This document shows positions 860 through 16,251 of a stretch of 64,000 nt of DNA, piece after piece. The translations under genes and the position numbers were made by a program. The DNA comes from Vulcanisaeta thermophila (lineage in GTDB: Archaea > Thermoproteota > Thermoprotei > Thermoproteales > Thermocladiaceae), in NCBI RefSeq assembly GCF_001748385.1, contig NZ_BCLI01000001.1:661177-725176 (forward strand), written 5' to 3'. The notes beneath the pieces were generated by a model. That model saw only the letters and a list, made by a program, of their open reading frames with translations, ran no database searches and was not told the origin of the DNA. The first letter of the stretch is position 1, and every line of letters starts with the position of its first letter.

Positions 860-950
860 AGCACTCAATCCCGTCTAATAATGACAAAGCCCTTACCACA
901 ACCATGCCAAATAACCTCAACTTAAAAGCACTAAATCCCATTATATTGTA

Positions 951-1562
951 ATGGAAAACATAAACCCCAAAATACTACGGCTCGCCCTTGACTCATTGAG
1001 GAGAGATTTCCCAAATAAGTCCCGTTCATGGATCAGGAGAGCCCTTAGGCGTTTGCCCAGGGTGAGGCCCCACCCCAGGCTGCCTAATGTCTGGATTGTG
1101 GAGGGCGACCCGTCCCTGGGCGATAGGTACCCCACGTACGTGGTTAGGCTTAGGCCTGATGGGAGGTATGCATGTAGTTGTTTCGAGACTCCCTGGGGAA
1201 TGAGGAGGAAGAGCGAGATTTGTACTCACATAGCCGCAGTAATGCTTTGGCGTAGGTACCACGCACTCCTCAACGAGGTTGTTTACGCGGACACAATCAC
1301 CATAAAATGCAGTGATTACAATCTACTGATTGATAAGTCAGTTAGGGACAAGGTGAGAATGGAGAAGAGGGTCAGGGTCCTCAACAACGACCTAATCAAC
1401 CCACTTTACGAAATCACCTACGTCATCTGGTCCAAAGAACCAATGAGAGTCAGGGCCAAGGTTGTGTGCAACGAAGACATAGAGGAAATAAAGATGGATT
1501 TAAAGCCCACACCCAGGTACATGATTGAAGTCGTTAGTGAAGCCCGTCATTCTCAATGGTGA
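951..1562 (+). CDS. SWIM zinc-finger protein
   Basis: A 203-residue soluble protein with a clear SWIM zinc-finger signature: Cys75-x-Cys77-x13-Cys91-x-His93, followed by a hydrophobic helix (IAAVMLW). SWIM domains bind DNA or proteins and occur in recombination mediators and transposase-associated proteins. The N-terminal 40 residues are very basic (RR and RRLPR clusters), consistent with nucleic-acid binding. A TATA-like CTTAAAAG lies about 27 bp before the ATG, fitting a leaderless start. Its 3' end overlaps the convergent RadA-like gene by 29 bp. The pairing with a RadA-like protein recalls eukaryotic SWIM proteins that work with Rad51, but a functional link here is inference. Confidence 0.8.
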   Translation: MENINPKILRLALDSLRRDFPNKSRSWIRRALRRLPRVRPHPRLPNVWIVEGDPSLGDRYPTYVVRLRPDGRYACSCFETPWGMRRKSEICTHIAAVMLWRRYHALLNEVVYADTITIKCSDYNLLIDKSVRDKVRMEKRVRVLNNDLINPLYEITYVIWSKEPMRVRAKVVCNEDIEEIKMDLKPTPRYMIEVVSEARHSQW

Positions 1563-2508
1563 ACTTAGCCTCGGCGCCACTGGGCACCCCAGGCACGTCT
1601 AGTGCCTTGATTACGCCCTCGTTTTTTGATTTCGGTTTCTGCATGAGCCACCTCTGATTTACCGTGTGAGCTAGGACGTTGCCTCCAACGGGCATTTTAA
1701 GCTCTATGTACCCCGTGGGCATGGTCATTACTTGATTTGTGTAAATCACCAACACCCCCTCCCTTATGGTGAGCCTCCTGAGCCAGTCTAGGACGTAGTG
1801 GAGCCTTTGCTGCCTCTCCGCAAGCCTCTCACGACCCCTGAACTGGGCCCTGTAGAGGGCTGTGACTGAGTCAACAATGATTACCCTGGCGGAGCCACCA
1901 GTCACCAGTCCCGAGACCCTCACCCTGATGAACTCCTCGAGCTCATCAACAGTGGCAGGGTTGTAGGTGAGTAGGTGCTTGTCAAGGAACTCATCGTAAT
2001 TAACACCGAACCTGGTGCACATGTTCTTAAGCAACTCACTACCTAGGTATGAGTCTAGGGTCTTCTCCGTGTCGATGTACACCACGCCCACGCCGTGCTG
2101 GGCCACAGAGGCCACTGAGACCTGCAAAGCCATTATGGTCTTACCACTCCCGAACTCGCCCGCAAACTCGTAACTAGCACCGAACCTCAGGCCACCAATG
2201 AGGTTGTCGAACTCCTTAATGTCGGTCTTCACGACTGGTACACTGCCCACCCTCTCAAGCCTCTCCCTCGCTGTGAGTGGTTGGGTGTCCATGCCCAGTG
2301 CCCTCCTGGCGACTGCGATTACCTTCTCCGCCACCGCCACGTCCTGGTAACCAAGGATCTCAGCAAGCTCCTCGGGGTTGTACAGGACCAACTGCCTGAG
2401 GCTTGTTAACCCAACCGCCCTGATCCTCTCAACCACGGCCCTAGGCAACCCAGCATCGATTAGGGGCGCGAACTCGCCATCCTCGGTTGTGCTTGATTTC
2501 TTAGGCAT
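1534..2508 (-). CDS. Divergent RadA-like recombinase
   Basis: A RecA/Rad51-family ATPase of 324 residues, the usual RadA length. An N-terminal helix-hairpin-helix-like domain spans residues 15-70. Walker A (GEFGSGKT) is at 117-124, Walker B (VIIVD) at 209-213, followed by the family's FRGRERLAERQQ stretch, a TNQVM segment and a VGGNVLAHT segment. It departs from canonical RadA: the region before the core reads GLRFG instead of a glycine-rich GGGIE, and the expected FxxA polymerisation motif is PLTA (77-80), lacking Phe. It is probably a RadA paralogue. Its place in a putative DNA-import locus suggests recombination of incoming DNA, though it could be the genome's main RadA. Confidence 0.8.
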   Translation of the reverse strand: MPKKSSTTEDGEFAPLIDAGLPRAVVERIRAVGLTSLRQLVLYNPEELAEILGYQDVAVAEKVIAVARRALGMDTQPLTARERLERVGSVPVVKTDIKEFDNLIGGLRFGASYEFAGEFGSGKTIMALQVSVASVAQHGVGVVYIDTEKTLDSYLGSELLKNMCTRFGVNYDEFLDKHLLTYNPATVDELEEFIRVRVSGLVTGGSARVIIVDSVTALYRAQFRGRERLAERQQRLHYVLDWLRRLTIREGVLVIYTNQVMTMPTGYIELKMPVGGNVLAHTVNQRWLMQKPKSKNEGVIKALDVPGVPSGAEAKFTIENDGLH

Positions 2509-2559
2509 TGAAATATAGGGTGGAGGCTTTTTAAGTGGGGTGTATTAAGTCGTTTATGG

Positions 2560-2970
2560 TTATGGTTTAATTCCCGTTACTTGACCTAACACCGTCGCCA
2601 CCTCCTTCAGCATCTCCATTAATAACTGGCCAGCAATACTCGCCGCAGTGCCCACGTCGATAGTACCCGTGTTTGCATAGGTGATGAAAAGCCCTATTAC
2701 GAACATCGCCAACCAAAGACCCAAGGCCCCGCCCAGTACCAACCTCTCTACATGCTCCGTAACACCACTCAACGCTGCTGATCTACCCCACGAGCTGGGG
2801 TGGGCTATGTACTTAACCACGTTGTACACTATCATTATGAGTAGTATTATGAAGCTTACACCGCCTATGAAGAGTATTGCCTGCCAGAGACCGGAGGCTA
2901 TTGGCGTTATGGCCTGCTGCACAGCATTTGCTATCTCACTCCCACCGGTTTGAAGCAAAACCCCAACCAT
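2560..2970 (-). CDS. Small two-helix membrane protein, VirB2/TedC-like candidate pilin
   Basis: About 136 residues with two long hydrophobic helices (roughly residues 28-58 and 84-106) joined by a polar, positively charged loop (SSWGRS...EHVER), then an amphipathic C-terminal helix. This is the layout of VirB2/TraA conjugative pilins and of the small CedA1/TedC pilins of crenarchaeal DNA-import systems. The ATG at 2970 was chosen because the palindromic TTTAAA at 2990-2996 lies 23 bp upstream; a GTG at 2985 would sit too close to it. It is divergently arranged with the ParA-like gene. No recognisable sequence motif proves pilin identity; a generic small membrane protein is the alternative. 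Confidence 0.6.
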   Translation of the reverse strand: MVGVLLQTGGSEIANAVQQAITPIASGLWQAILFIGGVSFIILLIMIVYNVVKYIAHPSSWGRSAALSGVTEHVERLVLGGALGLWLAMFVIGLFITYANTGTIDVGTAASIAGQLLMEMLKEVATVLGQVTGIKP

Positions 2971-2988
2971 CAACCCATTAAGCACCTC

Positions 2989-2998
2989 CTTTAAAAGG
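2989..2998. promoter_or_regulatory. Shared palindromic TATA box between divergent genes
   Basis: The sequence CTTTAAAAGG contains a self-complementary TTTAAA. It lies 23-24 bp from the ATG at 3017 (plus strand) and 23 bp from the ATG at 2970 (minus strand). One symmetrical TATA element could therefore drive both leaderless genes. The spacing is seen directly; promoter function is inferred. Confidence 0.5.
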
Positions 2999-3016
2999 GA
3001 GGGACTGCTGAGTTTG

Positions 3017-3817
3017 ATGCTGGTACCAAGGAAGGTCGTAATCTCGTTCTACAGTGGATCCAGGGGAGGGACTGGGAAGACCACGCTAGCCGTTAACACA
3101 GCAATAGCCCTGCTAATGGCCCTAAGGGTGCCCGTGGCCTATGTGGACTTCGGCGTTGATGGCACCCACATGGGCTCCTTAATGCTCTCGGCAAAGACAG
3201 ACACGGTGGGCGTCACGGACTACCTAATGGGTTTTGTTGACAACGACGAGGTTATACAGAGATCGGGCTTAATCGATGGGCTCTACGTGGTGCCCCCGGG
3301 CACCGTGGACTCCATAAGGATGATCCACAGCATGCCCAGGGGGTTAAGACCAGTAATTGAGAGGCTCGGCTCCCTAGTCACGAGGCTGGCCGAGCATAGG
3401 GCTTATGTGGTAATCATGGACTTACCCTCGGGCTTGGCGCAACCATACACAATAGCCTCCCTAGTGAATTCAGACATCGTTAATGTTGTCCTGGACCACA
3501 GCCCAGGGGCCCTGGAGGCACTAACCAGCATAGGGACTGTACTAAACGTTGTGAGGCCTAGGGTTGTGAATGCGGTGCTTAACAAGTACATACCCAACGC
3601 ACAACCAAGCCTCAGGGAGAAGGTTGAGGGCTTCGTGAGTAACGGCGGCGTGTTCACACTAAGCATGAGCGTAGTCTTACACTACCTAACATCACAATTA
3701 AAGCCCTTCATAAAATACAAACCAGTGGGGGACCTCAGGGAGTTCATGAAGGATTTCACGAGGTTTATGGGTGCCTTAAAAACCCAGGTCAAGCAAGTAC
3801 TTGGTGGTGTACTATGA
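3017..3817 (+). CDS. ParA/MinD-like ATPase with atypical Walker A
   Basis: A 267-residue SIMIBI-class P-loop ATPase. The deviant Walker A region reads SRGGTGKTT at residues 15-23: the signature lysine of ParA/MinD (KGGxGKT) is Arg16, while the P-loop Lys21 and Thr22 are kept. A switch-like VDFGVDG follows at about residue 40, and a hydrophobic strand ending in MDLPSG carries the Walker B aspartate. ParA proteins partition plasmids or position membrane machines, and VirC1-type ParA proteins assist conjugation. The ATG is 24 bp from the shared TATA; a TTG one codon earlier is also possible. It overlaps the next gene by 4 bp (ATGA), indicating an operon. Confidence 0.75.
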   Translation: MLVPRKVVISFYSGSRGGTGKTTLAVNTAIALLMALRVPVAYVDFGVDGTHMGSLMLSAKTDTVGVTDYLMGFVDNDEVIQRSGLIDGLYVVPPGTVDSIRMIHSMPRGLRPVIERLGSLVTRLAEHRAYVVIMDLPSGLAQPYTIASLVNSDIVNVVLDHSPGALEALTSIGTVLNVVRPRVVNAVLNKYIPNAQPSLREKVEGFVSNGGVFTLSMSVVLHYLTSQLKPFIKYKPVGDLREFMKDFTRFMGALKTQVKQVLGGVL

Positions 3818-4173
3818 ACATACTCGGACTCAGGAAGAGTAACACTAAGGAGCAGGATAGTGGCGAGTTGCTCAGGAACCTAATCAACGAGGGCGGACAC
3901 GCGGAGGCGCAGCAACAACCCTCGTTTAGGGAGGAGGTTGAGGTCGAGGAGTTAGTCAACAAACTAGCTAGCATGAACCCCGTGCACAGGGCCATTGTGG
4001 CTAGGGCACTGGGCAACCGCGACATACTCAGGGGGTTAAAGCCAAGGGACTGGGCAGACTACTTTGCATCAAGGGGGATTAGTAAGGGCGTGGTTGAGGC
4101 ATTCCTAGAATGGTTAAGCGAGACCTGCGGTGGTGCCGGTGGAGGAGGAGAGAGCAGCAAGGGCAGTGGCTAA
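3814..4173 (+). CDS. Small charged protein of unknown function, partner of ParA-like gene
   Basis: 119 residues, translationally coupled to the ParA-like ATPase by an ATGA overlap. The N-terminal half is acidic and low in complexity (Gln and Glu runs). Residues 45-105 look like a compact helical domain, followed by a Gly/Ser tail. The position right after a ParA-type gene is where a ParB-like or adaptor partner would lie, but no HTH or RHH fold is obvious. Function is not recognised. Confidence 0.6.
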   Translation: MNILGLRKSNTKEQDSGELLRNLINEGGHAEAQQQPSFREEVEVEELVNKLASMNPVHRAIVARALGNRDILRGLKPRDWADYFASRGISKGVVEAFLEWLSETCGGAGGGGESSKGSG

Positions 4174-4603
4174 GTACGAATTAACAGAGAAGGTACTCAG
4201 GAAACTCAGGGAGAGGAGGATTAAGGTAAGGCTCATAAACATTGACGAGGAGGCCGTGAAGTTCTCGAGGAAGCTAGCGGGGAATTGCATATTTAGGGAA
4301 TTCTGCCAGAGGGCGCTCATGAGGTTATTCACCAGGTACACAACCAAGTCAATAAGGGAGGTCATAAACGAGGCACTGGATAGAGGAATACCACCGGACA
4401 TACCCATCGCATACGCCATAAAAGCACCGGAAAGACTAAGCGAACTAATAAGCACAGGCTCGGTAGACTGGGAACTAGTGACTGAGGCAGTAAATGAGGT
4501 AATGAACACGAGACTCGGGGTGCTGGAAATCAAAAACGCACTGGAGGTCCGGGGAAAGGCAAAACACCCACACATACCCAAAATCCTCAAAACCAACCCC
4601 TAG
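4130..4603 (+). CDS. Unrecognised soluble helical protein
   Basis: 157 residues, basic N-terminus (ELTEKVLRKLRERRIKVRL), predicted mostly helical. It overlaps the previous gene by 44 bp from GTG 4130; later GTGs at 4133 and 4139 would only slightly reduce the overlap. It ends inside the 3' end of the convergent RHH gene (17 bp overlap). The continuous frame, codon use and tight packing argue that it is real and part of the ParA operon. No family recognised. Confidence 0.55.
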   Translation: MVPVEEERAARAVAKYELTEKVLRKLRERRIKVRLINIDEEAVKFSRKLAGNCIFREFCQRALMRLFTRYTTKSIREVINEALDRGIPPDIPIAYAIKAPERLSELISTGSVDWELVTEAVNEVMNTRLGVLEIKNALEVRGKAKHPHIPKILKTNP

Positions 4604-4949
4604 ACCTAATAATGCTGACCCAAGGGTTATCCTCAAAACCCGTTGTTTGCTCCTGGGGTTGCCCCTCCCTCCGTGACTGCTGGGGCTGGGACTGGGCGCA
4701 CTGACTCAACCCATTGAGTACAGCCCTCAACTCGTTGAGTGTGGTTCTCAACTCATTGGTTAGGCCACCCAACTCACTAACCAGCGACCTCAACTCAGTG
4801 ACTAAACTCACTAACTCACCGCACTGCCCCTGCCCAGCACGCCTCAGTAACTCCTCAACCACATCACCAATGGTTACACCCCTACCAGCAGCCATCCTAA
4901 CAAGCTCCCTATACACACCCTCACTAACCCTCACCGTCCTCCCAACCAC
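4587..4949 (-). CDS. Ribbon-helix-helix regulator with coiled coil and FEDNPWVSIIR tail
   Basis: About 120 residues. The N-terminus has the ribbon-helix-helix pattern of CopG/VapB-type DNA-binding proteins (RTVRVSEGVYRELVRMAA, then a DVVEELLRRA helix). A heptad-like Leu/Val repeat follows (ELVSL..ELRSL..ELGGL..ELRTTL..ELRAVL), likely a coiled coil. A Gln-rich linker leads to the tail FEDNPWVSIIR. GTG 4949 was chosen because TATA-like CTTAAAAG (4972-4979) is 26 bp upstream; TTG 4964 is the longest option. The operator array at 4984-5101 lies directly behind this promoter, so autoregulation is likely. It could be an antitoxin without an adjacent toxin or an island regulator. Confidence 0.7.
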   Translation of the reverse strand: MVGRTVRVSEGVYRELVRMAAGRGVTIGDVVEELLRRAGQGQCGELVSLVTELRSLVSELGGLTNELRTTLNELRAVLNGLSQCAQSQPQQSRREGQPQEQTTGFEDNPWVSIIRSRGWF

Positions 4950-4983
4950 GCCTAAAGCTAACAAAGGCTTAAAAGGGCCCTGG

Positions 4984-5101
4984 TTACCATGGTGACCACG
5001 GAAAGCCCATAATCACCACAGTGACCACGGAAAAACATGCCTCTCACGCCAAAGTGACCATAGTGATTACAGAAAAACCGCAGTCACCAATGTGACCACG
5101 G
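4984..5101. repeat. Four-copy 18-bp palindromic iteron array (operator candidate)
   Basis: Four units start at 4984, 5013, 5055 and 5084, spaced 29, 42 and 29 bp apart. Each is built as TCAC-N4-GTGA followed by CCACGG. Units 2 and 4 match fully; unit 1 has TTAC and unit 3 has TGAC with TTACAG. The array sits immediately upstream of the TATA box of the RHH gene and downstream of the EVE gene's 3' end. RHH proteins commonly bind such spaced dyads, so this is probably its operator or a partition-type site. Confidence 0.75.
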
Positions 5102-5127
5102 TGGGTACGTGATGCTTATGTTTGCTC

Positions 5128-6024
5128 TTAAGGTTTTTTAAGTTCGTTAATTAGTTTCCTTATGTTTTCATTGCGTAGTGTATCGTGTAATTGTGCGAGT
5201 TCACCGTGCCTTATTATGATTACTTGCTCCTTAATTTCATCAAATGTTTCTTTCAATAAGTTATGTACTTTATCCATGTCCTTATTGGTAATGACGTAGA
5301 TGGGCCTTGATCTGTACTTCTTATAGGCATGCATTAACGCAGTAAGATCCTTATCTATTTCACCCCTTACGTGAACCTCAACCACAGCATGGGGCGCAGG
5401 CTTTGGCTCCTTGAAAAATGCTACGTCTACCCTGAAGTTATCAATTTCGTGGTTAATCTCGGCTTTAAAACCAAGCCACACACCAATATCCCTAACCATC
5501 TCAACCAACTTATTATGGCTATATCCAGTATGGCTACGCTCTGGCTTATAAGACACTGCTCCCTGGGACGCCCTTAACCTCTCCTCGATCAATCTCCCAA
5601 GCTCATCTGGAAGTGGTTTCTTACGGATATACAGCATCCTGAGCCCTTTCAGATCTAGGTCTTTTTCTCTAAGGATTTCTTTTTCTTTAAGAATCCTTGA
5701 CAACTCATCCTTAACCTCATCAAACTTCACAACCCCCTCAGCAATGAATCTCACATCCACTACACGTGGATAAAGAACTTTCCCCTCCCTTTCCTCGTCA
5801 GGGAATTGAGGCTTGCTGGACTCCCTCCACTCCCCAACTACCTCGACAACCGCCGTGAATGAGCCACAGAGCTCCTCGCAATTTTCCTGCATGACATAAA
5901 CCACAAGCCTATCGCCCGGCTTTATTTTCTCTGCAAAATTCTTTGATTTCTCAGGTAAACCATAGATGAGGTGGCCCCTCATGTACCTATAATTCTCCTC
6001 AGTCATCATTACTAACCAATACAT
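5128..6024 (-). CDS. EVE-domain protein with nuclease-like C-terminal domain
   Basis: 298 residues. Residues 1-125 match an EVE (PUA-like) domain: the YWLVMMTEENYRYM opening, GDRLVVYV, and a later VDVRF strand. EVE domains read modified bases such as 5-methylcytosine. Residues 165-298 resemble a PD-(D/E)xK fold: helix with Glu175, strand with Asp200 (RVDVAFF), and strand Glu216-Val-His218, where the usual Lys is His, followed by an amphipathic helix and a YVIT strand. The plan suggests a modification-dependent restriction enzyme. It lies beside a large nuclease-methylase, supporting a defence role. Base composition is more AT-rich than flanking housekeeping genes. Catalytic competence is uncertain because of the K-to-H change. 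Confidence 0.7.
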   Translation of the reverse strand: MYWLVMMTEENYRYMRGHLIYGLPEKSKNFAEKIKPGDRLVVYVMQENCEELCGSFTAVVEVVGEWRESSKPQFPDEEREGKVLYPRVVDVRFIAEGVVKFDEVKDELSRILKEKEILREKDLDLKGLRMLYIRKKPLPDELGRLIEERLRASQGAVSYKPERSHTGYSHNKLVEMVRDIGVWLGFKAEINHEIDNFRVDVAFFKEPKPAPHAVVEVHVRGEIDKDLTALMHAYKKYRSRPIYVITNKDMDKVHNLLKETFDEIKEQVIIIRHGELAQLHDTLRNENIRKLINELKKP

Positions 6025-6108
6025 CAGTAATAAATCATTAGTTGATTATTAAAAATTTTCCCCTTATCTTTCTATAAGCATTGCGGGAATATCTTGTTAA
6101 GTTGCTGA

Positions 6109-6240
6109 TTAGTCCCACGAAACCTGTTGAACTCGCACATCCCTCAGATGAAGCTTCCCAATCCACTCCATTAGTATTAGGTATGCTGGTATGGTCAGTA
6201 ATCCAGCTATGGCTAGATTAATGTAATAAAACCCCACCAC
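6109..6240 (-). pseudogene. Single-helix membrane peptide or gene remnant
   Basis: From GTG 6240, 43 residues are encoded: one hydrophobic helix (IAGLLTIPAYLIL) followed by a charged tail (KLHLRDVRVQQ). Too short to assign; it may be the tail of a lost transporter or a small real protein. Confidence 0.25.
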
Positions 6241-6264
6241 AAGCTCTACTGCACCATAACTACA

Positions 6265-6360
6265 TTACTCACAGTCAAGCCCCTCGCTGGCTAGCCTGGT
6301 TAGCTCCTCATAAACGTTCTCCCCGACCCTAATAGTCCTATGCCTCGCACCACCCACCAC
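6265..6360 (-). pseudogene. Truncated VapB-like antitoxin
   Basis: 31 residues from GTG 6360 encode only the beta strand and first helix of a ribbon-helix-helix antitoxin (HRTIRVGENVYEELTRLA), then stop. An AT-rich TATA-like stretch (TAAATTTA, about 6380) precedes it. It matches the N-terminus of the RHH protein at 4587-4949 but lacks the second helix and toxin-binding tail. No VapC toxin is adjacent. Probably a decayed toxin-antitoxin locus. Confidence 0.45.
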
Positions 6361-6629
6361 TACATATCTAGGGCGCACATTAAATTTAGAAAATTTCGCT
6401 TGGAAGATTGAGGGATAATTGGTGCCGTGCTTAAACCGCCATGTTAAGAGGGTTTCATGGAGGTTGCGGCGGTGGCTTAGGTGAGTGCTTGTGGTGTATT
6501 CCATGGAGGGTGCCTTGGGGCGTGCACACATTAGTTGTTGTGGGTGTCTGTGCAGTGAATACATTAATCATAACTACTGGGGTAATGTGGAGGTTAAGTT
6601 TAAGTTTCCCTGGGTATTAATTTCTAGAA

Positions 6630-9600
6630 ATGGCTGTGTCTGGTTCTCAGATTGATGTTGATGGTGTTTTGAATTGCTTCTTACAAGGCATTAAGAGGGC
6701 TGGTAATGAGGAGGAGCTGAGGATTAACGTATCCAAGTGCATAGAGGACATGATCCTCAAACCACTGGGTATAACGCAGTACGGTCGCTACGAGTACACC
6801 CTAGTCTCTGGGGCTAGGGTGGATGCCCTCTACGGGCACGTAATCATAGAGTACAAAGCCCCAGGCAAACTCTCAACAAACACCGACATAACCAGGGCCA
6901 AGGAGCAGGTAATAAACTACATTAAAACGGAGGCTGCCTCGAAGGCTGAGTGGGATAGGTACCTGGGTATTATAATCAGTGATAGGATAGCCTTCGTGAG
7001 GTACTACAAACCACAAGATACTTGGGTCCTAAGGGGCCCGTACAACATCACCAGGGAGAGCATCATAAAGGTTATTGAGGCCCTGAGAGGGCTAAGGAGG
7101 AAGGCGCTCAGTGTGGATAACCTCCTGAGGGACTTCGGCCCCCAGTCGGAACTTGCTGGGAGGGTTATTAGGGCGTTGTATAGGAGGCTCGTTGAGAGTA
7201 GGAGCCCGAGGACTAGGGTGTTGTTTGAGGATTGGATGAGGCTCTTCAGACAGGCAACGGGTTACAGCCCCGATAGGCTGGAGGAACTACCGCAGCTAGC
7301 CCGTGAGTATGGGTTAACGGGTAACGTCAGCTATGACGCCCTCATATTCGCGATACAGACGTACTACGCCTTCATACTGAAGCTCCTCGCCGCGGAGGTT
7401 GTTTACCTATACGGCGGTGGTAGGTTTTACAAGTCCTACATAGCCGAGCTAGATGATGCATACACAAGGGGCGGTGTCGACGCCCTAAGGGATGAGCTTA
7501 GGGAGTTGGAAAGCGGCGGCGTTTTTAGGCACTTTGGCTATGAGAATTTCCTGGAGGGTGATTACTTCTCCTGGTACCTGGAGGAGCTTGATAAGGAACT
7601 TGCTGATGCACTAGCCGAAGTCGTCAGGAGGCTCTCGGACTACGAACCAGCAACGCCTCAGTTGGAGCCCGAGTACGCCAGGGACCTCCTAAAGAGACTG
7701 TACCAGCAGTTAGTACCCGGGGACATTAGGCATAACCTTGGTGAGTACTACACGCCCGACTGGCTCGCTGACTTCCTACTCGATGAGGTGGGGCTCAGCC
7801 TAGAGAACCTCATGAAGATGGGCGAGGAGGACCCACTGAAACCGCTGCAATTGAGGGTTCTGGACCCAGCATGTGGCTCGGGCACCTTCCTTGTGAGGTA
7901 CATAGCGAGGCTTAGGGCTTATGCCAGGGAGCACTTCCTGGAGGATGTACTGGTCGATTACCTACTACAGAACGTGGTTGGTTACGACCTAAACCCACTG
8001 GCTGTACTCACCGCCAGGACAAACTACCTACTCATGATTGCGGACCTGCCGAAGAGGGGGACAATAGAGATACCGATTTACATGGCCGACTCACTGATGG
8101 TTGAGAGGAGATCCACAATACTGGGTGATGTTTACGTGCTGAAGACAACGGCTGGGGAGTTCAGGATACCAGCAAGCATTGTCGAGAAGAACCTACTGCC
8201 AGGTATACTCCACGAGGTGACTGACGCACTGAGGAATAGGTACAAGCCGGAGGATTTCAAAGCAAGACTAAAGTACAGGTTCAGGGAGTTAGAGGAAAAC
8301 GAGCTCAACGTCCTGGTGGATTTCTACAGCACGCTACTAAAGCTGGAGGAGGAGGGTAAGGACGATGTGTGGGTATCCATAATAAGGAACGCCTTCGCAC
8401 CAATACTGAGGGGCAGGTTCGACTATGTTGTGGGTAACCCACCATGGGTTAATTGGGAAAACCTGCCTGAGGACTTCAGGGAGTTGTCCAATGACTTGTG
8501 GCAGCACTATGGATTAGTAGGGAGGGGTGCAGGTTTTAAGAGGGACTTGGCGATGCTCTTCATGGCCAGGTGCTTCGACCTCTACCTAAAACCAGGCGGT
8601 AAGCACGCATTCCTAATGCCGTTCACGGTATTCAAGTCACAGGCTGGTACTGGCTTTAGGAGGTTCCTAGCCACCAAAACCAAGGTGCATGTTGTGCACG
8701 ACATGGTATCTTTAAGGCCGTTCGAAGAGGCTACGAATGAAACCTCGGCAATAGTTGCTGAGAAAGTATGCGAGGTTAATAAGACATGCCCTGAAATGAG
8801 CAAGGTGATTACAGAGAATATGAAGGGGGTTAGGCACGTAATATGGGTTAACAGGACAGGGAAGCCCATACCCACTGATATGCATTTGGAGGACGTCCTC
8901 AAGGTTACGGAGAGGTTTGAGGCCATAATGACGCCCGTAGTGGAGGGAGACCCCTCAAGCTCTTGGATGCAGGTAACAAGGAAAGCGCTGCCTTACATTA
9001 GGAAGGTAACCTCTGGGCCCTCATCATACGAGGCGCATGCGGGAGTATATACGGCTCTAAACCAGGTATACTTCATACAGATTAAGCAGAGGCTCCCGGA
9101 TGGTAAGTTGCTAATCACTAACCCACCGGAGCCTGGGCAGAAGAAGAGGGTTAAGCAGGTCGAGGTGACTGTAGAGCCTGACCTTGTCTACCCACTCATT
9201 AGGGGCAGGGACGTTAAGAAGTGGTACGTGGATTTCAGTAACAGATACATCATAATACCTCACTATGAGAATGGAGAACCAATACCTTTAGAGGAACTCA
9301 AAATCAAGTACCCGCTTACGTACGGTTATCTTTATCAGTTTAAGGAAGAGCTCAAAGATAGGGGCATCAAGCCATTTATCTCGCTAAGGAAAATGATTAG
9401 AAGTGCTGAGTCAAAAACTGAGAAAAACTCCGCACTGGGGAAGCTAGAGAGCAACTTCCACATAGTAGATAACATAGGCCCCTACACCTTCGCCCCCTAC
9501 AGGGTAGTGTGGAAGGAGGTCTCAGCCCGAAAGCAGGTAGGGGGTTTTCATGTGGCGGTTTTAGAGCCGGTTGATGACAGATACTTAGGAAGGAAAGTTC

Positions 9601-10004
9601 CTATACCGGAGCATACGGTAATATTAATCCCGTTTAATGATGCTATGGAAGCATATTACGTGGCTGGTATTTTAAACTCAACCGTAGCTGCTATGTACGG
9701 CACATACATGGTCAGTAGTTCATTAAGTCAAATGCTTATACCGAAGTATAATGCTGATAATCCCCTTCATAATGAGATAGCTAGACTTTCTAGGAAAGCC
9801 CATGAGCTTGCTAAATGCATTTACTCTAAGATCAAGCCCGATTACTGCAGGGAGGTTAGGGACCCAGGGAGTGAGCTTAGGAGGGTTGAGGATGAGCTTG
9901 ATAAAGCCGTGGCCCAGCTCTACGGCATACCCGAGGACGCCCTGGAGGAGTTCAGGAAGTTACTGGGTGTATTGGCTGGTGAGGGTGTTCCTGAAGAGGG
10001 GTGA
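6630..10004 (+). CDS. Single-chain nuclease / N6-adenine DNA methylase (type IIG- or PglX-like)
   Basis: 1124 residues. The N-terminal domain has a PD-(D/E)xK signature (Asp65 ... Glu74-Tyr-Lys76), typical of the nuclease module of fused restriction-modification enzymes. A helical region precedes the LGEYYTP entry to the methylase core; SAM motif I (DPACGSGTF) is near residue 412 and catalytic motif IV (NPPW) near 603. The remaining 500 residues should hold the target-recognition domain. Eco57I-type type IIG enzymes and the BREX methylase PglX share this core. The downstream BrxL remnants make a BREX-like system possible, with this protein supplying host methylation and possibly cleavage. The ATG lies about 30 bp after an AT-rich TATA-like stretch. 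Confidence 0.85.
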   Translation: MAVSGSQIDVDGVLNCFLQGIKRAGNEEELRINVSKCIEDMILKPLGITQYGRYEYTLVSGARVDALYGHVIIEYKAPGKLSTNTDITRAKEQVINYIKTEAASKAEWDRYLGIIISDRIAFVRYYKPQDTWVLRGPYNITRESIIKVIEALRGLRRKALSVDNLLRDFGPQSELAGRVIRALYRRLVESRSPRTRVLFEDWMRLFRQATGYSPDRLEELPQLAREYGLTGNVSYDALIFAIQTYYAFILKLLAAEVVYLYGGGRFYKSYIAELDDAYTRGGVDALRDELRELESGGVFRHFGYENFLEGDYFSWYLEELDKELADALAEVVRRLSDYEPATPQLEPEYARDLLKRLYQQLVPGDIRHNLGEYYTPDWLADFLLDEVGLSLENLMKMGEEDPLKPLQLRVLDPACGSGTFLVRYIARLRAYAREHFLEDVLVDYLLQNVVGYDLNPLAVLTARTNYLLMIADLPKRGTIEIPIYMADSLMVERRSTILGDVYVLKTTAGEFRIPASIVEKNLLPGILHEVTDALRNRYKPEDFKARLKYRFRELEENELNVLVDFYSTLLKLEEEGKDDVWVSIIRNAFAPILRGRFDYVVGNPPWVNWENLPEDFRELSNDLWQHYGLVGRGAGFKRDLAMLFMARCFDLYLKPGGKHAFLMPFTVFKSQAGTGFRRFLATKTKVHVVHDMVSLRPFEEATNETSAIVAEKVCEVNKTCPEMSKVITENMKGVRHVIWVNRTGKPIPTDMHLEDVLKVTERFEAIMTPVVEGDPSSSWMQVTRKALPYIRKVTSGPSSYEAHAGVYTALNQVYFIQIKQRLPDGKLLITNPPEPGQKKRVKQVEVTVEPDLVYPLIRGRDVKKWYVDFSNRYIIIPHYENGEPIPLEELKIKYPLTYGYLYQFKEELKDRGIKPFISLRKMIRSAESKTEKNSALGKLESNFHIVDNIGPYTFAPYRVVWKEVSARKQVGGFHVAVLEPVDDRYLGRKVPIPEHTVILIPFNDAMEAYYVAGILNSTVAAMYGTYMVSSSLSQMLIPKYNADNPLHNEIARLSRKAHELAKCIYSKIKPDYCREVRDPGSELRRVEDELDKAVAQLYGIPEDALEEFRKLLGVLAGEGVPEEG

Positions 10005-10330
10005 GGGCGTCACGGGGGTTGTTAGGCCCTCGGTGAAGTTTCTCAAGGTCGATGTTGTTGCTGGGCAGACTGATTACCTGGAGGTTAATATTGTGACTGC
10101 GGAGCTTTGTGATAAGGCTGTGCTCGTTCTTAGGTGGCCCTGGGGGCACGCAGACGCTGAACCTTGGTGATGGTAGGCATAGGATTGAGGTTAAGGTCCC
10201 TGAGGGGGTTTATGAGGTTGCGTATAGTTTTAAGTGCTCTGACTATGAGCATGATGGTAGTGTTAAGGTAACGGCATCCTCCAGGGTGTCGGAGGGGCCT
10301 AGGAGGCCCAGGACTCTTAGACTTGGGTGA
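9985..10330 (+). pseudogene. Frameshifted beta-sandwich-like protein between methylase and brxL fragment
   Basis: Two overlapping frames carry one continuous-looking protein. The first, from GTG 9985 overlapping the methylase end, reads RPSVKFLKVDVVAGQTDYL...AVLVLRW. The second continues GTQTLNLGDGRHRIEV...VAYSF to 10330. The break is at a run of five G at about 10142-10146; removing one G joins the frames in register. Alternating hydrophobic strands suggest an Ig-like beta sandwich, and the family is unknown. Its 3' end overlaps the start of the brxL fragment, so it was the middle gene of an operon. Either a genuine frameshift mutation or a homopolymer sequencing error. Confidence 0.55.
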
Positions 10331-10596
10331 TGGTTGTGGGTGATCTTTATGCTAAGATTAGGAGGGCTTTTGGGGACTATGATGTGGATAAGAGCCTACT
10401 TCATGAGACGGAGATATCTAGGTTGCCGGGTTTTATTGCTGAGTACCTCATAACGGAGTATGCGATGGAGTATCCCAATGATTGGCAGACGAGGCTTAGG
10501 GAGTTCATTAAACGGCATTATTTTGAGGCTATAGTAATTGATTTTGAGGACAACCCCTGGGTCAGCATCATTAGGCTTAAGGCCGGAAGATCCTGA
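10330..10596 (+). pseudogene. N-terminal fragment of BrxL/Lon-like protein with foreign tail
   Basis: 88 residues from ATG 10330. Residues 5-65 resemble the N-terminal domain of BrxL (Lon-like AAA+ protein of BREX systems): KIRRAFGDYDVDKSLL, then SRLPGFIAEYLITEYA and FIKRHYF. The full family is several times longer (about 600-700 residues). After residue 65 the sequence departs from what the family should show and ends with FEDNPWVSIIR plus eight residues, the same tail as the RHH protein at 4587-4949. The matching C-terminal piece lies at 15928-16251. The gene is therefore interrupted and presumably inactive. Confidence 0.6.
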
Positions 10597-11096
10597 GAAC
10601 CTCCTCGGCCACTGTGCATGGGACTATGCATGCCCTCTTCATGAAACTCCAAGCTTGTTTGGGCCTTTACCGGGCCTTGGCTTCCTGCCAGGCACTAGCC
10701 TAACCACGGCGACGGTATATGCACAGTAGTAGTAATAGGGCTAGAGTCAAGGGCCAAGCCTAAACCCGTCTGGAGACACATAAGGGGGACGTGTGGTGCC
10801 CTTGTATGGTGTCTGGGTTAGGTACTAAGGCTTGTCTAAAGCAAAAATTAGGGGGAATTTTGAGTTTCGTGATTGAAGAAACTTTGGCACTTTTGCGGGA
10901 TTCTAACTTAGGGTTCTTCAGGCTTTTAATATTTCGTTGTAACTATAATGCACGATTAGACACTCGTACAATACATCATCTCATTCTCATAATTAACATT
11001 ACTGTTTTACACTTATATAACAAACCTCTTGGTTTGGTTATCTATTGAGTCAGATTTATAGTCGACCGTAAAAATACGTCACTACGCTCTAACGTA
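10597..11096. other. 500-bp junction region, no gene recognised
   Basis: No convincing gene. On the minus strand a short stretch reads RACIVPCTVAEEVLRIFRP and ends at 10581, and another reads VVRLVPGRKPRPGKGPNK; both look like scraps of lost genes. Base composition shifts from the mixed composition of the methylase operon to the strongly AT-rich cassette at about 10840. The region probably contains the left junction of the inserted metabolic cassette. Confidence 0.4.
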
Positions 11097-11100
11097 ATGC

Positions 11101-11108
11101 TTATAAAG
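11101..11108 (+). promoter_or_regulatory. TATA box of SDR gene
   Basis: TTATAAAG lies 25-29 bp before ATG 11130. This decides the start: the upstream ATG at 11097 would put the TATA box inside the coding region. Confidence 0.55.
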
Positions 11109-11129
11109 GGGTTTTTCCTCATAACGTCA

Positions 11130-11858
11130 ATGTCAGAGGAGGTTGCAATAGTAGCTGGTGGTGCGGGGGATATTGGTTTTGCGGTGGTTAAACGACTTCT
11201 TAAAATGAATTACAAGGTAGCTATATGGGATGTAAAACCTGAAAATGAGATAACTGCATTAATAAAATCATTGAAGGAAGAAGGTAGTAATGTGTTAGGT
11301 ATATCGGTTGATGCAACGGATTATAATGGTGTGGAACGTGCATATAACATAACTAAAAGAACATTTAATAATTACAAGGTTACAGTTCTAGTTAACTCAA
11401 TAGGTATTGAAACTTTAAAGCATTTTCATGAGATGTCGTGGGAGGAATGGAGTAGAGAATTACTTGTAAATTTATTGGCCCCAGCTAATACTATACGTGT
11501 GGTTCTACCTGAGATGATAGCTAATAAGAAGGGTACTGTAATAAATATAACAAGCATATGGTCCACAAGGATTGGGCCTTTAAGATCAGCTTACATTACA
11601 GCAAAGTGGGGCTTACTAGCATTAACTAAATCTCTCCAAGAGGAATATAGAGAATATGGTATAAGATTCGTCGCGGTAAGTCCTGGTCCTGTATATACTG
11701 GGATGACAAAGAGGCTCCTTAAGGGACCTAAACCACCTGAATGGATGAATCCCGATGATATAGCTGATGTAATAGAGTTCGTATTATCAGAAAAAGGCAA
11801 AAATATAGTGGGAGGCGAGATACAAGTATATGGCTGGGGAAAACCTATAGGTTTTTAA
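11130..11858 (+). CDS. Short-chain dehydrogenase/reductase (SDR)
   Basis: 242 residues from ATG 11130. Classical SDR features: nucleotide-binding GGAGDIG at 10-16, a strand-4 VNS..G motif at about 88, and catalytic Ser142, Tyr155 and Lys159 (Y-x3-K). It reduces or oxidises an alcohol/ketone with NAD(P). Codon use is AT-rich (AGA, ATA, TTA), unlike the GC-richer methylase operon, marking it as part of an acquired cassette with the flavoprotein, carrier and isochorismatase-like genes. The substrate cannot be told from sequence. Confidence 0.85.
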   Translation: MSEEVAIVAGGAGDIGFAVVKRLLKMNYKVAIWDVKPENEITALIKSLKEEGSNVLGISVDATDYNGVERAYNITKRTFNNYKVTVLVNSIGIETLKHFHEMSWEEWSRELLVNLLAPANTIRVVLPEMIANKKGTVINITSIWSTRIGPLRSAYITAKWGLLALTKSLQEEYREYGIRFVAVSPGPVYTGMTKRLLKGPKPPEWMNPDDIADVIEFVLSEKGKNIVGGEIQVYGWGKPIGF

Positions 11859-11865
11859 TTCAATC

Positions 11866-13293
11866 TTAATTTCTTAACTTAAGTACATACTTAACGGCGT
11901 CCTCTCCTGCGATTTTTCCGAACGTAAGTCCTCTTAGGAATGAAGTACCGCCCAGATGGCCCTTAAAGTATATACCTCCCATTAATTCCCCTACAGCCCA
12001 AAGTCCTTTTATCCAATTACCACTTGTATCTAAAACTCTGCCGTTAAGGTCTGTTTTTAAGCCTATGTATGGATATGTGATTCTAGCTTCAATAGGGTAT
12101 GCATAAAATGGTGGTGTATCTATGGTTATGGCCCAGTTAGATTTCTCTGGGTTAAGCCCTCTAGTGGATTTACCGTCTATATTAAACGGATCAAACTTAC
12201 CTGGTTGGACAGCCTTATTATATTCATTGATTGTTTCAAGGAATTTTGACGGATCCTTTAATCCATAATCTATAAGCTTCCTAGCTAATCCTTCTAAGCT
12301 GTCAGATTCTATAGGAGGTAATCCTGAAAGAATAGCTCTTTCATGACCAGGTATTTCTAATACTTTTTTATCGAAAATTAAGAAGGCCTTATTTAGAGGT
12401 TGTTGGAATATCACCTTAGCAACATAGTCATAATATTCCTCCACGGTACCCATGCCCTCATCTACGAACCTATGCCCATATATATTAATTAAAATGCCAT
12501 ATGGATATATTAATACCACAGGCTCGACTTCTTTACTTCGAGCATCAACAGGTTCCGCATGAAATCCACCCCATTCACCATCTAATGCAGCGCCAACCTC
12601 AAGAGCCATCCTGATTCCCTCACCCATATGATAAATCTCTTCTTTTCCCAGTATACTATCTAAATAAATAGCATTAGGACCTATATATTCAACTAACATA
12701 TTTATATTTTTCTGAAATCCTCCTGTAGCTAAAATTATAGCTTTAGCATTAACTCTTACTGAATCACCATCTCTTTGCCTTACGTATACACCATTTATAT
12801 TACCATTATCATCAAGGGATAATTTCCACGCGGTACTTTCATAAGCTACCTGGAGTCCTTTAGATCGTGCATATGATAATAAAGTCTCTATTACTGCCAG
12901 TCCATTACCAACTGGCGCGCACCTTGGTCTCTTAGCGGTTAAAAACATGGGCATAGGCACCTTTTCTATCTTAACCCCATGATCCTTAATCCATTTTATA
13001 GCTTTGGTACCTTCTATCTGTAATTTCTTCCAATACTCAATATTAGTCTTTTCTGTTAAATACTTGACTGCATCTTCGACAAGATACTCAGATACCTTTT
13101 CACAATTATCGTCAAGTCTTAAATAGGCGGTTGTATGTCTTGAACTACCACCAAATAGTTCAGGCCTAACCCGTTCTAGCATCAATACGTTTAACCTTAC
13201 CCCCATTTCTTCTGCAGTTTCTAAAGCTGCAAGAGCTGCGGAAACTCCAGAAATTCCAGCCCCCACCACTATAATATCAAATTCGTCTCCCAT
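11866..13293 (-). CDS. FAD-dependent fumarate reductase / tricarballylate dehydrogenase-like flavoprotein
   Basis: 475 residues. The N-terminus has the dinucleotide fold VVGAGISG at about residues 10-17 and a following acidic-end strand (MLER). A GGSSRHTTAYLR segment follows, as in the fumarate-reductase/tricarballylate dehydrogenase flavoprotein family, then a GGF box and a C-terminal GLWAVGELMGG...LGGTSF...FGKIAGE that completes the FAD site. Likely a soluble dehydrogenase of a dicarboxylate, tricarboxylate or ketosteroid-like substrate. It ends 7 bp from the convergent SDR and follows the MFS carrier gene on the same strand (49 bp gap), so uptake and oxidation are probably coupled. AT-rich. 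Confidence 0.8.
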   Translation of the reverse strand: MGDEFDIIVVGAGISGVSAALAALETAEEMGVRLNVLMLERVRPELFGGSSRHTTAYLRLDDNCEKVSEYLVEDAVKYLTEKTNIEYWKKLQIEGTKAIKWIKDHGVKIEKVPMPMFLTAKRPRCAPVGNGLAVIETLLSYARSKGLQVAYESTAWKLSLDDNGNINGVYVRQRDGDSVRVNAKAIILATGGFQKNINMLVEYIGPNAIYLDSILGKEEIYHMGEGIRMALEVGAALDGEWGGFHAEPVDARSKEVEPVVLIYPYGILINIYGHRFVDEGMGTVEEYYDYVAKVIFQQPLNKAFLIFDKKVLEIPGHERAILSGLPPIESDSLEGLARKLIDYGLKDPSKFLETINEYNKAVQPGKFDPFNIDGKSTRGLNPEKSNWAITIDTPPFYAYPIEARITYPYIGLKTDLNGRVLDTSGNWIKGLWAVGELMGGIYFKGHLGGTSFLRGLTFGKIAGEDAVKYVLKLRN

Positions 13294-13342
13294 TAAGAAC
13301 CAATAAATATTTAATTTTAAAGCATTACCCCTATAATATTCA

Positions 13343-14641
13343 TCATACTGTTCTACTTAAATCCACGCCCTTAGTTTCAGGAAGCCAAATCCATGCTACG
13401 ATTGCACCTATTAAAGTTGATATAGCTACGTATAATACAGATAAGGCAGCAGAGTGAGTTACATATAAAAAGTATAAACTTATATAAGGTATAAATCCAC
13501 CATATATCCCAGTGGATATTTGATAAGCAAGATTAAAGCCCGTGGTCCTTACATTTGCAGGTACTAATTCTGGATATGCAGCTCCTAATGCAGCATTACC
13601 TAGTGCTGCATATAATATTAATTCTAAAGTAACAAGGCTTAATATTATCACATTATTTGTAATAGTAAATACATAGAATGATGGTATTACGGTAATAGTA
13701 GCCAATGTATATGCTAATCTAAAAATCGCCCTTCTACCATATCTATCACTCAATATACCTCCTGCTATATAGAAAAATATTGTTATTATGTATATAAGTA
13801 CAAATGAAAATAATGTCGTTACATACGGCACCTTTGAAACCTGAAGCCAAAATGTGTAGGTAGTTAGAAATGAAGAGTAGAAAATAGCCGTTTCAGCAAT
13901 CTGAAGCAAAAGAACAATTATAAAAGGTTTCCAAGCTTTCCTAAAAGCATCAACTAATGGGATCTTACTGATTTTACCTGCACTAGCATAGGCATGAAAG
14001 ACAGGCGTTTCCTCTAATTTAAATCTCATTATTATACCAACGATTATAATTATCGCACCTAACCAAAATGGTATTCGCCAACCCCATGCATATAATCCCT
14101 CACTACCAATAATTGTGGAGACTAAATAAACTGTCGATACGCTAAATGCAAAACCGAGAGGCCACATAGCTTGAATAATACTTGCATACAGTGCCCGTCT
14201 ATTGAAGGGAGCATGTTCAATTATATACGTTGTAGCTGATCCAAATTCACCACCGAGACCCAATCCCTGAAGTAACCTAAATAACACTAATAATACAGTC
14301 GCCCAAACTCCTATTACTGCATATGTTGGTAAGAAACCTATACCCAGAGAAGCCAATCCCATAAGTAATAATGTAAGGATGAATGCGGTCTTCCTACCCA
14401 CCTTATCTGCAATATGTCCGAATATTATCGCACCGATGGGTCTCATAACGTAACCAACACCAAAAACTAATAATGCATTAAGCATGGCGACTATAGGGGT
14501 CTTAGTTGGTGGAAATAGAACTTTCCCTAAAATAGGGGCTACATATGCATATACAACAAAATCATAAATCTCAATGAACATTCCTATACCTGAAGCAGCA
14601 GTAATGTAAGCTAGACTTGATCTAGTGGGTTTTATACTCAC
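13343..14641 (-). CDS. MFS metabolite:H+ symporter
   Basis: 432 residues, twelve predicted membrane helices. It shows hallmarks of the metabolite:H+ symporter family (ProP, KgtP, ShiA, citrate/tricarballylate carriers): an IEIYDFVVYAYVAP first helix, the MRPIGAIIFGHIADKVGRKTAF signature loop between helices 2 and 3, and RLLQGLGLGGEFG in helix 4. Probably imports an organic acid for the neighbouring flavoprotein. GTG start; an AT-rich TATA-like TTTAAAAAT sits about 25 bp upstream. AT-rich like its neighbours. Confidence 0.85.
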   Translation of the reverse strand: MSIKPTRSSLAYITAASGIGMFIEIYDFVVYAYVAPILGKVLFPPTKTPIVAMLNALLVFGVGYVMRPIGAIIFGHIADKVGRKTAFILTLLLMGLASLGIGFLPTYAVIGVWATVLLVLFRLLQGLGLGGEFGSATTYIIEHAPFNRRALYASIIQAMWPLGFAFSVSTVYLVSTIIGSEGLYAWGWRIPFWLGAIIIIVGIIMRFKLEETPVFHAYASAGKISKIPLVDAFRKAWKPFIIVLLLQIAETAIFYSSFLTTYTFWLQVSKVPYVTTLFSFVLIYIITIFFYIAGGILSDRYGRRAIFRLAYTLATITVIPSFYVFTITNNVIILSLVTLELILYAALGNAALGAAYPELVPANVRTTGFNLAYQISTGIYGGFIPYISLYFLYVTHSAALSVLYVAISTLIGAIVAWIWLPETKGVDLSRTV

Positions 14642-15069
14642 AATTCTTCGTTCATATTATGATTTTTAAATTTTTCCCTATTTAGTTCTTACTAAATTCC
14701 GTGACATCATACTAATGATGTATGCGATGTATATAACCAGGCAAAGCGATGGTTCCACCACCAAGCCCACAGCAGTACCCCCAACACCAGGTATATAACC
14801 CACGGAGGAATCTTCAACAACACCCCACACTAACTTAAAAATCAACTACTTCTTCTAGATAGGGGCAGCCCTGAGGTAAGGGAGCAAAACGAGACTCGCA
14901 AATCCTAACGTGGAGATGCCTTAAAAAGTTCTCCCTTAAATTAATAATGATGCAGCGAGGCCCCGAGGACAGTCCAGACCTCTCCTAGTCTAAATATACT
15001 AAGCGGCAAGCCACCCATAAATGCTTATTGATAAGGATAAAATTTAAATACCCAATAAGTAGTTTTTAA
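14642..15069. other. 428-bp intergenic region with promoters
   Basis: It separates the divergent MFS and isochorismatase-like genes. Both promoters are visible (TTTAAAAAT near 14668 on the minus strand, AATTTAAATA at 15041-15050 on the plus strand). The middle, about 14740-15000, is more GC-rich than either flank and contains no reading frame I can support. It may be a scrap of older sequence caught inside the cassette. Confidence 0.4.
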
Positions 15070-15633
15070 ATGATGGTTCAGAAAGATCTTCTTAGAGATA
15101 TCCTTAGGCCTGAGGGTTCTATTCTTATCGTGTTCGATGTACACAGATCGCTCTATGAGCAGATATTCAATAGAGAGGAATTTCTTTACGCGTTAAATGC
15201 TGTGATTAATTCGGCTAGGAGGGCTAAAGTGCCCATTATATTCACTAGAATAACGCCATATCCGCAGGGATTTCAACCACCAAATTTAAAGTTACCTTGG
15301 CGTGGTCGTTTTAGGCCTGAGGGAGCGGAACTTATCGTATCCCCTAAGCCTGAAGATATAATAATAGATAAAAACACATGGTCATTGTTTGTGGGAACTA
15401 ATGTAGAAAGATTACTAATTAATTCCCACAGATATACTGTAGTCTTCACTGGCATAGCCACGGAAGTAGGAATAGAAACTAGTGCTAGACATGCTTATAC
15501 ACTAGGCTTCATACCAGTAATTATTAGTGATGCAGTATCATCTTATGATAAAGAGGCTCATGAAAGATCATTAGCTAATATGAAGATATTCTTTCCAGTA
15601 ATAACGTCTAAAGAATTAGAAAACTATTGGTAG
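15070..15633 (+). CDS. Isochorismatase-fold hydrolase lacking the nucleophilic cysteine
   Basis: 187 residues of the isochorismatase-like hydrolase fold: Asp23 (IVFDVHRSL), Lys101 (IIIDKNTWSLF) and the GIATEVGIETSARHA segment. In amidohydrolases of this fold (nicotinamidase, carbamoylases) this last segment carries the catalytic Cys; here the position is Gly134. True isochorismatases such as EntB and PhzD also lack the Cys, so a vinyl-ether or other non-amidase reaction is more likely than amide hydrolysis. TATA-like AATTTAAATA is about 25 bp upstream of the ATG. AT-rich, the last gene of the cassette. Confidence 0.8.
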   Translation: MMVQKDLLRDILRPEGSILIVFDVHRSLYEQIFNREEFLYALNAVINSARRAKVPIIFTRITPYPQGFQPPNLKLPWRGRFRPEGAELIVSPKPEDIIIDKNTWSLFVGTNVERLLINSHRYTVVFTGIATEVGIETSARHAYTLGFIPVIISDAVSSYDKEAHERSLANMKIFFPVITSKELENYW

Positions 15634-15927
15634 TCAATAATGTTAGTACCAGTTAATTCGGTTAAATTCAGCGGCTCGAAGGGTAATTTACTACTCATCA
15701 TGCTCTGAACCTGTAGTCTAGCGGTAGGATGCCCAGGGAGTTAACCCCGCAGAAGCCTGAAGCACCGAAGGGTTAGGGTCCGCAGGAAGTCAGCTGGCCA
15801 ATGAGGGGCACCCCAATGGGTAGCATTATTGAGCCTTAGGTCTATCAACACTTTCAATGTTCTGAGGAAAGGGCAATTCAGTATATCCAGGCTAACTACC
15901 TAACCCAACAAGATCTTCCTGCAATGC
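15634..15927. other. Right junction region of the metabolic cassette
   Basis: 294 bp between the isochorismatase-like gene and the brxL C-terminal remnant. It contains the GC-rich conserved-looking block at 15715-15840 and then degraded sequence leading into the brxL remnant. No complete gene. Confidence 0.4.
15715..15840 (+). other. Degraded tnpB-tail / structured-RNA-like block
   Basis: A GC-rich block abruptly follows AT-rich sequence. One frame reads GRMPRELTPQKPEAPKG, stop, then GPQEVSWPMRGTPMGSIIEP, the Pro-rich style of the C-terminal tails of archaeal IS605-type TnpB proteins. The DNA also begins with a tRNA-like D-arm (TAGTCTAGCGGTAGGATGC) but has no T-arm or matching acceptor strand. 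I favour an insertion-sequence remnant at the cassette boundary; a broken tRNA gene is the alternative. Confidence 0.3.
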
Positions 15928-16251
15928 TTGCAAGAAGGCCCAGGGATTTGGGTTGCCCTGGACTACTTCTCCGAAGCGCTGCATACCATGAGGAGGGAGA
16001 CTCTGGTGGGTGAGGTGGATAAGTACGTGGAGTTGATTGGGAATACGACTATCAGGGATGAAAGGGCCATTAAGAAGATAATTAGCGCCTTCATGAAGCT
16101 CCTCTTCCCAAACCTACAATTCGATAACAGCGAGCTTAGGGTGGTGGTTGAGTATGCCGTGGAGATGAGGCAGATGATAAGGGACTGGTTACATAAATTA
16201 TCCCCAGGGGAATTCCCAAAGGAAAAACTAACATACACCATAAAATCATAA
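15928..16251 (+). pseudogene. C-terminal fragment of BrxL/Lon-like protein
   Basis: 107 residues that look like the end of the same protein whose N-terminus is at 10330-10596. It reads VALDYFSEALHTMRRE, then RDERAIKKIISAFMKLLFPN, then ELRVVVEYAVEMRQMIRDWLH and SPGEFP. The BrxL family ends in a comparable helical block (protease-domain end, RD..A..K..S..LKLL.P, ALE.R.R). The AAA+ and most of the protease domain are absent from the window. Between the two pieces lies the AT-rich cassette, so insertion was accompanied by loss of roughly 500 codons. Confidence 0.6.

Follow-up and report, generated by a model that had tools for sequence, protein, structure and literature searches.

In the literature consulted, BrxL has been studied within large BREX operons, and its partner there is unclear. 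According to excerpts of PMC10164562 and PMC12839542, respectively, the solved BrxL (PDB 8emc) carries a Lon-like C-terminal domain at residues ~498-679, and a short BrxL consisting of N-terminal and AAA+ domains is found in type 4 BREX. We analyzed a locus of Vulcanisaeta thermophila CBA1501T where a type IIG restriction-methylase gene is followed by remains of brxL; coordinates refer to the window, i.e., the whole 64,000-nt stretch of NZ_BCLI01000001.1 that was analyzed (Table 1). We read this locus, with a probability of roughly 0.7, as a decayed two-gene restriction system of mosaic origin, in which the middle of brxL was replaced by foreign DNA and the methylase core was kept. A literature search limited to open-licence PMC papers found no published description of a IIG-BrxL pair.

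Table 1. Features of the V. thermophila locus, in window coordinates.
Feature	Position	Strand	Basis and remarks
EVE-domain protein, long C-terminal region	5128..6024	-	PF01878 E 4e-14
Type IIG restriction-methylase, 1124 aa	6630..10004	+	full-length match to PADLOC REase_MTase_IIG, 1206.6 bits; target-recognition region ~9250-9830
Frame-shifted former methylase C-terminal tail	10005..10326	+	~94% nt identity to fused tail of L010; corresponds to the supposed beta-sandwich protein, ORF 10109-10330
BrxL N-terminal fragment, 67 codons	10327..10527	+	similar to residues 1-67 of intact 480-aa BrxL; 89.6% aa, 95% nt identity to L006/L010
FEDNPWVSIIR tail, in frame behind BrxL stub	10543..10596	+	resembles C-terminus of small ribbon-helix-helix-like genes
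SDR-family dehydrogenase	11097..11858	+	adh_short E 2.5e-43; likely true start near 11130, behind TATA-like box
FAD-dependent dehydrogenase, TcuA-like	11866..13293	-	NF006130 332.6 bits, below cut-off 369
MFS metabolite:H+ symporter, TcuC-like group	13343..14641	-	TIGR00883 342.5 bits, below cut-off 443.45
Isochorismatase-like cysteine hydrolase	15070..15633	+	PF00857 E 8.6e-34
Degenerate 5' part of intron-bearing tRNA-like sequence	15708..15765	+	blastn to own-genome and congener tRNA genes, own genome 7.5e-9
BrxL C-terminal fragment (end of AAA+ domain)	15939..16251	+	similar to residues ~380-480; 68% aa identity to L006

Intact brxL genes were collected as full-length matches to profile TIGR02688 above its cut-off of 329.3 bits. 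Twelve places in the class exceeded it (a gene in genome G077 that reads as two pieces was counted once), and at five of these (L010, L011, L012, L013, and L081) brxL lies directly behind a methylase of 1227-1279 residues; at the remaining places the gene upstream is another ORF, ~250-330 residues long. The intact relative's BrxL aligns with residues 32-471 of the 679 in PDB 8emc and therefore lacks the Lon-like domain, so the term Lon-like, which the original prediction had used, does not apply. All five methylases adjoining an intact brxL carry a fused C-terminal tail in an alignment of 12 enzymes. The tail is absent from all six stand-alone homologues of bacterial plasmids (1048-1084 residues; drawn from 12 listed of 142 records), a contrast that runs parallel to the one between archaea and bacteria; the Aeromonas sequence shows a stray match of two residues at its terminus. 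No brxL was detected by tblastn in the retrieved stretches around the six plasmid homologues, and the viral contigs scanned contained no homologues of the pair. The tail consists of an acidic linker, ~105 residues, and a basic end. Used alone as a query it gave nothing convincing among plasmids, and its best match in a PDB sequence-profile search was filamin, at a non-significant E of 0.26.

The locus had been described as a BREX-like operon. A search for PglZ covered the V. thermophila genome and the five genomes with an intact pair; the gene was absent from four of the five, and in the fifth (G002) it lies at 281.8 kb, with brxL at 1114 kb, ~833 kb away. The V. thermophila match, at 70.6 kb, was below cut-off. 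When selected neighbours were profiled, no BREX model matched except for BrxL and PglX-like methylase scores, but L011 has a 1387-aa AAA protein behind brxL (see below). By PglZ and these neighbours, the locus does not appear to be a BREX operon; its relatives are two-gene pairs of a IIG enzyme and a short BrxL.

Several other brxL surroundings were recorded. In L082 (4564-5418), L083 (4762-5628), and L027-L031, an ORF of ~280-330 residues is located directly upstream of a short brxL; in this context it often ends in RNRIERLL, and in L082 and L083, the two cases checked, it had no Pfam match. This ORF and the short brxL possibly form another two-gene unit. Between profile positions 240 and 241, the brxL of L033/L035 (G077:C1:441540-442979) is longer by ~32 residues, among them a run of masked residues. 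In L011 (genome G035), a 1387-aa AAA and TPR protein (4753-8916) with a weak match to MADS defence models is encoded directly behind brxL. A Meiothermus taiwanensis plasmid (L090) carries brxL beside vWA and tubulin-like genes and is annotated as BREX, with no PglZ listed within 9 kb.

In V. thermophila, two ORFs retain parts of brxL. ORF 10327-10596 matches TIGR02688 positions 1-61 (E 4.3e-6, 25.7 bits) and Pfam BrxL_N (E 1.1e-5, 25.9 bits, slightly below the Pfam cut-off of 28.2), and ORF 15928-16251 matches TIGR02688 positions 365-449 (E 2.4e-25, 89.1 bits) and BrxL_ATPase positions 221-311 (E 1.6e-26). Both are below the TIGR02688 cut-off, which relatives L003-L006 exceed. The fragments thus match opposite ends of one profile, on the same strand and in the correct order, and the predicted BrxL-like start and end flanking a set of metabolic genes are borne out. 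A whole-genome profile search revealed no brxL in V. thermophila beyond these two places; neither fragments of different families nor an intact copy elsewhere, the two outcomes that the original prediction had named as counting against it, were seen. No brxL match was obtained in the remaining 11 genomes of the genus, eight of which are less than 90% complete. Homology to intact L010 stops at 10527 and restarts at 15939, and both ends are sharp. The missing part amounts to ~928 bp, or ~309 codons, and not to the ~500 codons first estimated. The right-hand piece, originally given as the last 107 residues, is indeed the end of BrxL; 107 is the length of the ORF, and homology extends over ~99 in-frame residues and, past a 1-base gap, another 13 bases. 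Walker A (GPKATGKT, residue 229) and Walker B (VVFDE, 277) of the intact 480-residue homologue both fall within the missing segment, and therefore no ATPase can be made from the fragments. We conclude that brxL is destroyed in V. thermophila.

The relationship to L010 changes along the locus. Outside its variable region, the methylase gene (6630-10004) is 87% identical to that of L010 at the nucleotide level. Sliding identity is ~79-93% up to the interval ending at 9.33 kb, drops to 55-63% at ~9.2-9.9 kb, which corresponds to the target-recognition region, and is back to 92-95% from 9.93 kb through the brxL stub. The stub has diverged little (dN 0.045, dS 0.077), whereas in the C-terminal fragment dN is 0.21, dS is saturated, and 59% of third positions differ; its distance from L010 is roughly that between L010 and L005, unlike the stub's. 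The 3' part of the L010 brxL turns AT-rich at third positions. Judged from these comparisons, the segments of the locus have different histories, and the locus is a mosaic. The fragments may never have formed one gene, because their divergence from the same intact relative differs so greatly (89.6% versus 68% amino acid identity). The strongest rival reading takes this literally: the fragments would derive from two different brxL genes juxtaposed by recombination or deletion, with no single gene ever split. The gap between a dS of 0.08 and saturation is what speaks for it, but the fragments share strand and order, lie directly behind the methylase, and have no other brxL in the genome as company, and recombination inside a still intact gene, in this lineage or in that of L010, explains the same data. 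We consider an origin from two genes conceivable but doubtful. Conservation of the right flank within the genus starts only at ~18.1 kb, and in V. thermophila the gene that adjoins this conserved flank in congeners is located ~120 kb upstream of the window; there is therefore no clean empty site in congeners.

The DNA between the fragments is 5.4 kb long and contains SDR, flavoprotein, carrier, and isochorismatase-like genes, the kinds of genes that had been predicted. The four genes are indeed AT-rich (GC 0.36-0.38 and GC3 0.24-0.30, versus 0.49 for the window). The FAD protein (at E 1e-40) and the SDR (at E 1e-30) were absent from the 44 other genomes of the order, and among 398 genomes sampled from the phylum the FAD protein was found at 1e-60 in one other (G047). 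The G047 locus, with 36% GC, encodes an MFS protein 54% identical, an FAD protein 38% identical, and a same-family SDR 26% identical to those of V. thermophila, and isochorismatase-family and amidohydrolase genes are nearby; the isochorismatase had no tblastn match there at 1e-3. Against genome contigs, the FAD protein gave two distant matches. The cassette (11097-15700) had no DNA match in 72,556 plasmids, where the FAD gene has only distant protein relatives (less than 60% identity). By composition and distribution, the cassette is to be regarded as foreign. TATA-like boxes, read by eye ahead of 11130 and 15070, suggest that it has its own promoters, independent of brxL. The cassette is predicted to serve in importing and oxidising a small organic acid or a cyclic amide.

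Both junctions bear unrelated scraps. On the left, the peptide fused to the BrxL stub recurs, identical or nearly so, at the ends of ORFs at window positions 4587-4964 (minus strand) and at 1478-1804 (minus strand) of L008, whose assignment as ribbon-helix-helix proteins is weak (best RHH-type E 0.0046). This junction had no DNA match in plasmids. On the right, the tRNA-like stretch (15708-15765) was matched by blastn in 17 of the 25 genomes of the family, V. thermophila included, and gave neither an Rfam match at E 1 nor an ARAGORN gene. Such a relic at the edge of the foreign DNA would fit a cassette that came in as a single, discrete transposon or as an integrated element hitting brxL, as would the weak direct similarity of 10545-10579 to 15802-15838 and the inverted arms at 10814/15889. 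With one scoring scheme 2 of 300 shuffles equalled the direct similarity, with another 113 of 300, and it is not relied on; for the inverted similarity, 10 to 14 of 300 shuffles did as well. None of the ORFs separating the two fragments was recognised as coding for a transposase or integrase, the tRNA relic was missed by Rfam, and insertion alone does not explain the loss of 928 bp. Arrival as a single element is thus improbable, somewhat more so than an origin from two genes. The claim that brxL was gutted by the cassette holds insofar as the gene is destroyed and foreign genes lie between its ends, but the discordant dS values and the junction scraps speak against a single event in one gene.

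The methylase itself has fared differently. An N-terminal PD-(D/E)XK-like D..EYK, which we take to be the nuclease motif, and the methylase motifs DPACGSGT and NPPW are present in one chain and intact in an alignment with 11 homologues. The enzyme is 1124 residues long and stops at the acidic linker, and the tail is put out of frame, relative to L010, by a change near 10000 and by one extra base at 10142. What had been taken for a separate beta-sandwich protein is thus the methylase's own frame-shifted C-terminus. Of the 289 sites in the core that differ from L010, 177 are third codon positions, as opposed to 8 of 29 in tail and stub together (Fisher p 0.0006), where counts are small. The tail alone is significant (5 of 19, p 0.0035); the stub alone is not (3 of 10, p 0.095). 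The core and the tail are therefore under different constraint, and the tail and the BrxL stub, which show no third-position bias, now drift. The core has a dN of 0.067 and a dS of 0.42 relative to L010, indicating purifying selection, a measure that integrates the whole split from L010 and is no proof of function at present. The catalytic core is probably still active as a restriction-methylase on its own. Inactivation of the operon, as originally proposed, accordingly holds for brxL and not for the methylase core, which keeps all motifs checked and bears the mark of purifying selection.

The 89-aa stub could in principle be kept for itself as a working small DNA-binding protein: it remains in frame with its new tail, and it ends near the HTH-like/OB-fold boundary described for BrxL in excerpted text of PMC12839542. 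Its 10 differences from L010 are spread over the three codon positions (2, 5, 3) without third-position bias, and we regard this reading as very unlikely.

Least probable of all is an assembly artefact that joined unrelated pieces, a reading that draws on the draft state of the genome (2,022,594 bases in 10 contigs, including contigs of 791,731 and 634,758 bases) and on its being judged from the assembly alone, but which is opposed by an isolate culture sequenced to 688-fold paired-end Illumina coverage (PMC5069417, in excerpt) and by the placement of the window deep inside the 792-kb contig. The same coverage makes the frame changes near 10000 and at 10142 probably real.

The surroundings of the pair were also inspected. 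An EVE-domain gene adjoins it here and, by DNA similarity, is located near it in L012 (3008-3901) and L013 (17724-18611); similar DNA is also present in congeners without brxL. Window positions 35-4600 encode a Rad51-like ATPase, a ParA-like ATPase, small membrane proteins, and a protein with weak similarity to a type IV secretion pilin (E 0.03), and may be read either as an integrated conjugation-like element or as a copy of the Thermoproteales Ted DNA-exchange genes (described in excerpted text of PMC9905601). DNA similar to this region sits at other places in congeners.

Taken by itself, the disrupted brxL is nothing unusual: recombination has cost the genome a defence gene. We propose that the ancestral system comprised a type IIG restriction-methylase with its C-terminal tail and a short BrxL with an HTH-like start and an AAA+ DNA motor. 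In the intact pair, the site-specific nuclease/methylase would probably recruit or load the ring ATPase onto foreign DNA. Repeated recombination would then have turned the V. thermophila locus into a mosaic, in which 5.4 kb of scrap DNA and foreign, AT-rich metabolic genes now take the place of the ~928 bp of brxL that include both ATPase motifs. A frameshift has removed the methylase tail, leaving tail and stub to drift, and the core was probably kept as a stand-alone enzyme. The V. thermophila locus suggests which domain ties the enzyme to BrxL: BrxL and the enzyme tail were lost together, which marks the tail as a likely surface of contact. As a tentative proposal, which we consider less likely to be right than wrong, the tail may be the domain coupling the enzyme to the BrxL motor in the IIG-BrxL two-gene system, and V. 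thermophila would represent a natural uncoupling, in which brxL was destroyed, the tail was shed at the linker, and the enzyme reverted to a stand-alone type IIG form with its catalytic core kept. A two-gene system of one restriction-methylase and a short BrxL would serve as a minimal model of BrxL action.

Several described systems can be set beside this locus. Type IIG enzymes (PADLOC PDLC03630; the 'N-6 DNA methylase' homologues of bacterial plasmids) have the same single chain with nuclease and N6-methylase motifs and a target-recognition region; the archaeal relatives differ in adding the C-terminal tail and a brxL behind it, both of which are broken in V. thermophila. BREX types 1 and 4 likewise contain a BrxL with N-terminal and AAA+ domains, but the pair lacks an adjoining PglZ and its partner carries a nuclease motif; compared with the BREX BrxL of PDB 8emc, the relative's protein is without the Lon-like C-terminal part. 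Finally, in the tricarballylate TcuA/TcuC sets, the best match of the cassette's FAD dehydrogenase is TcuA and the symporter strongly matches TcuC, but both remain below curated cut-offs, and the SDR and isochorismatase partners suggest a different substrate.
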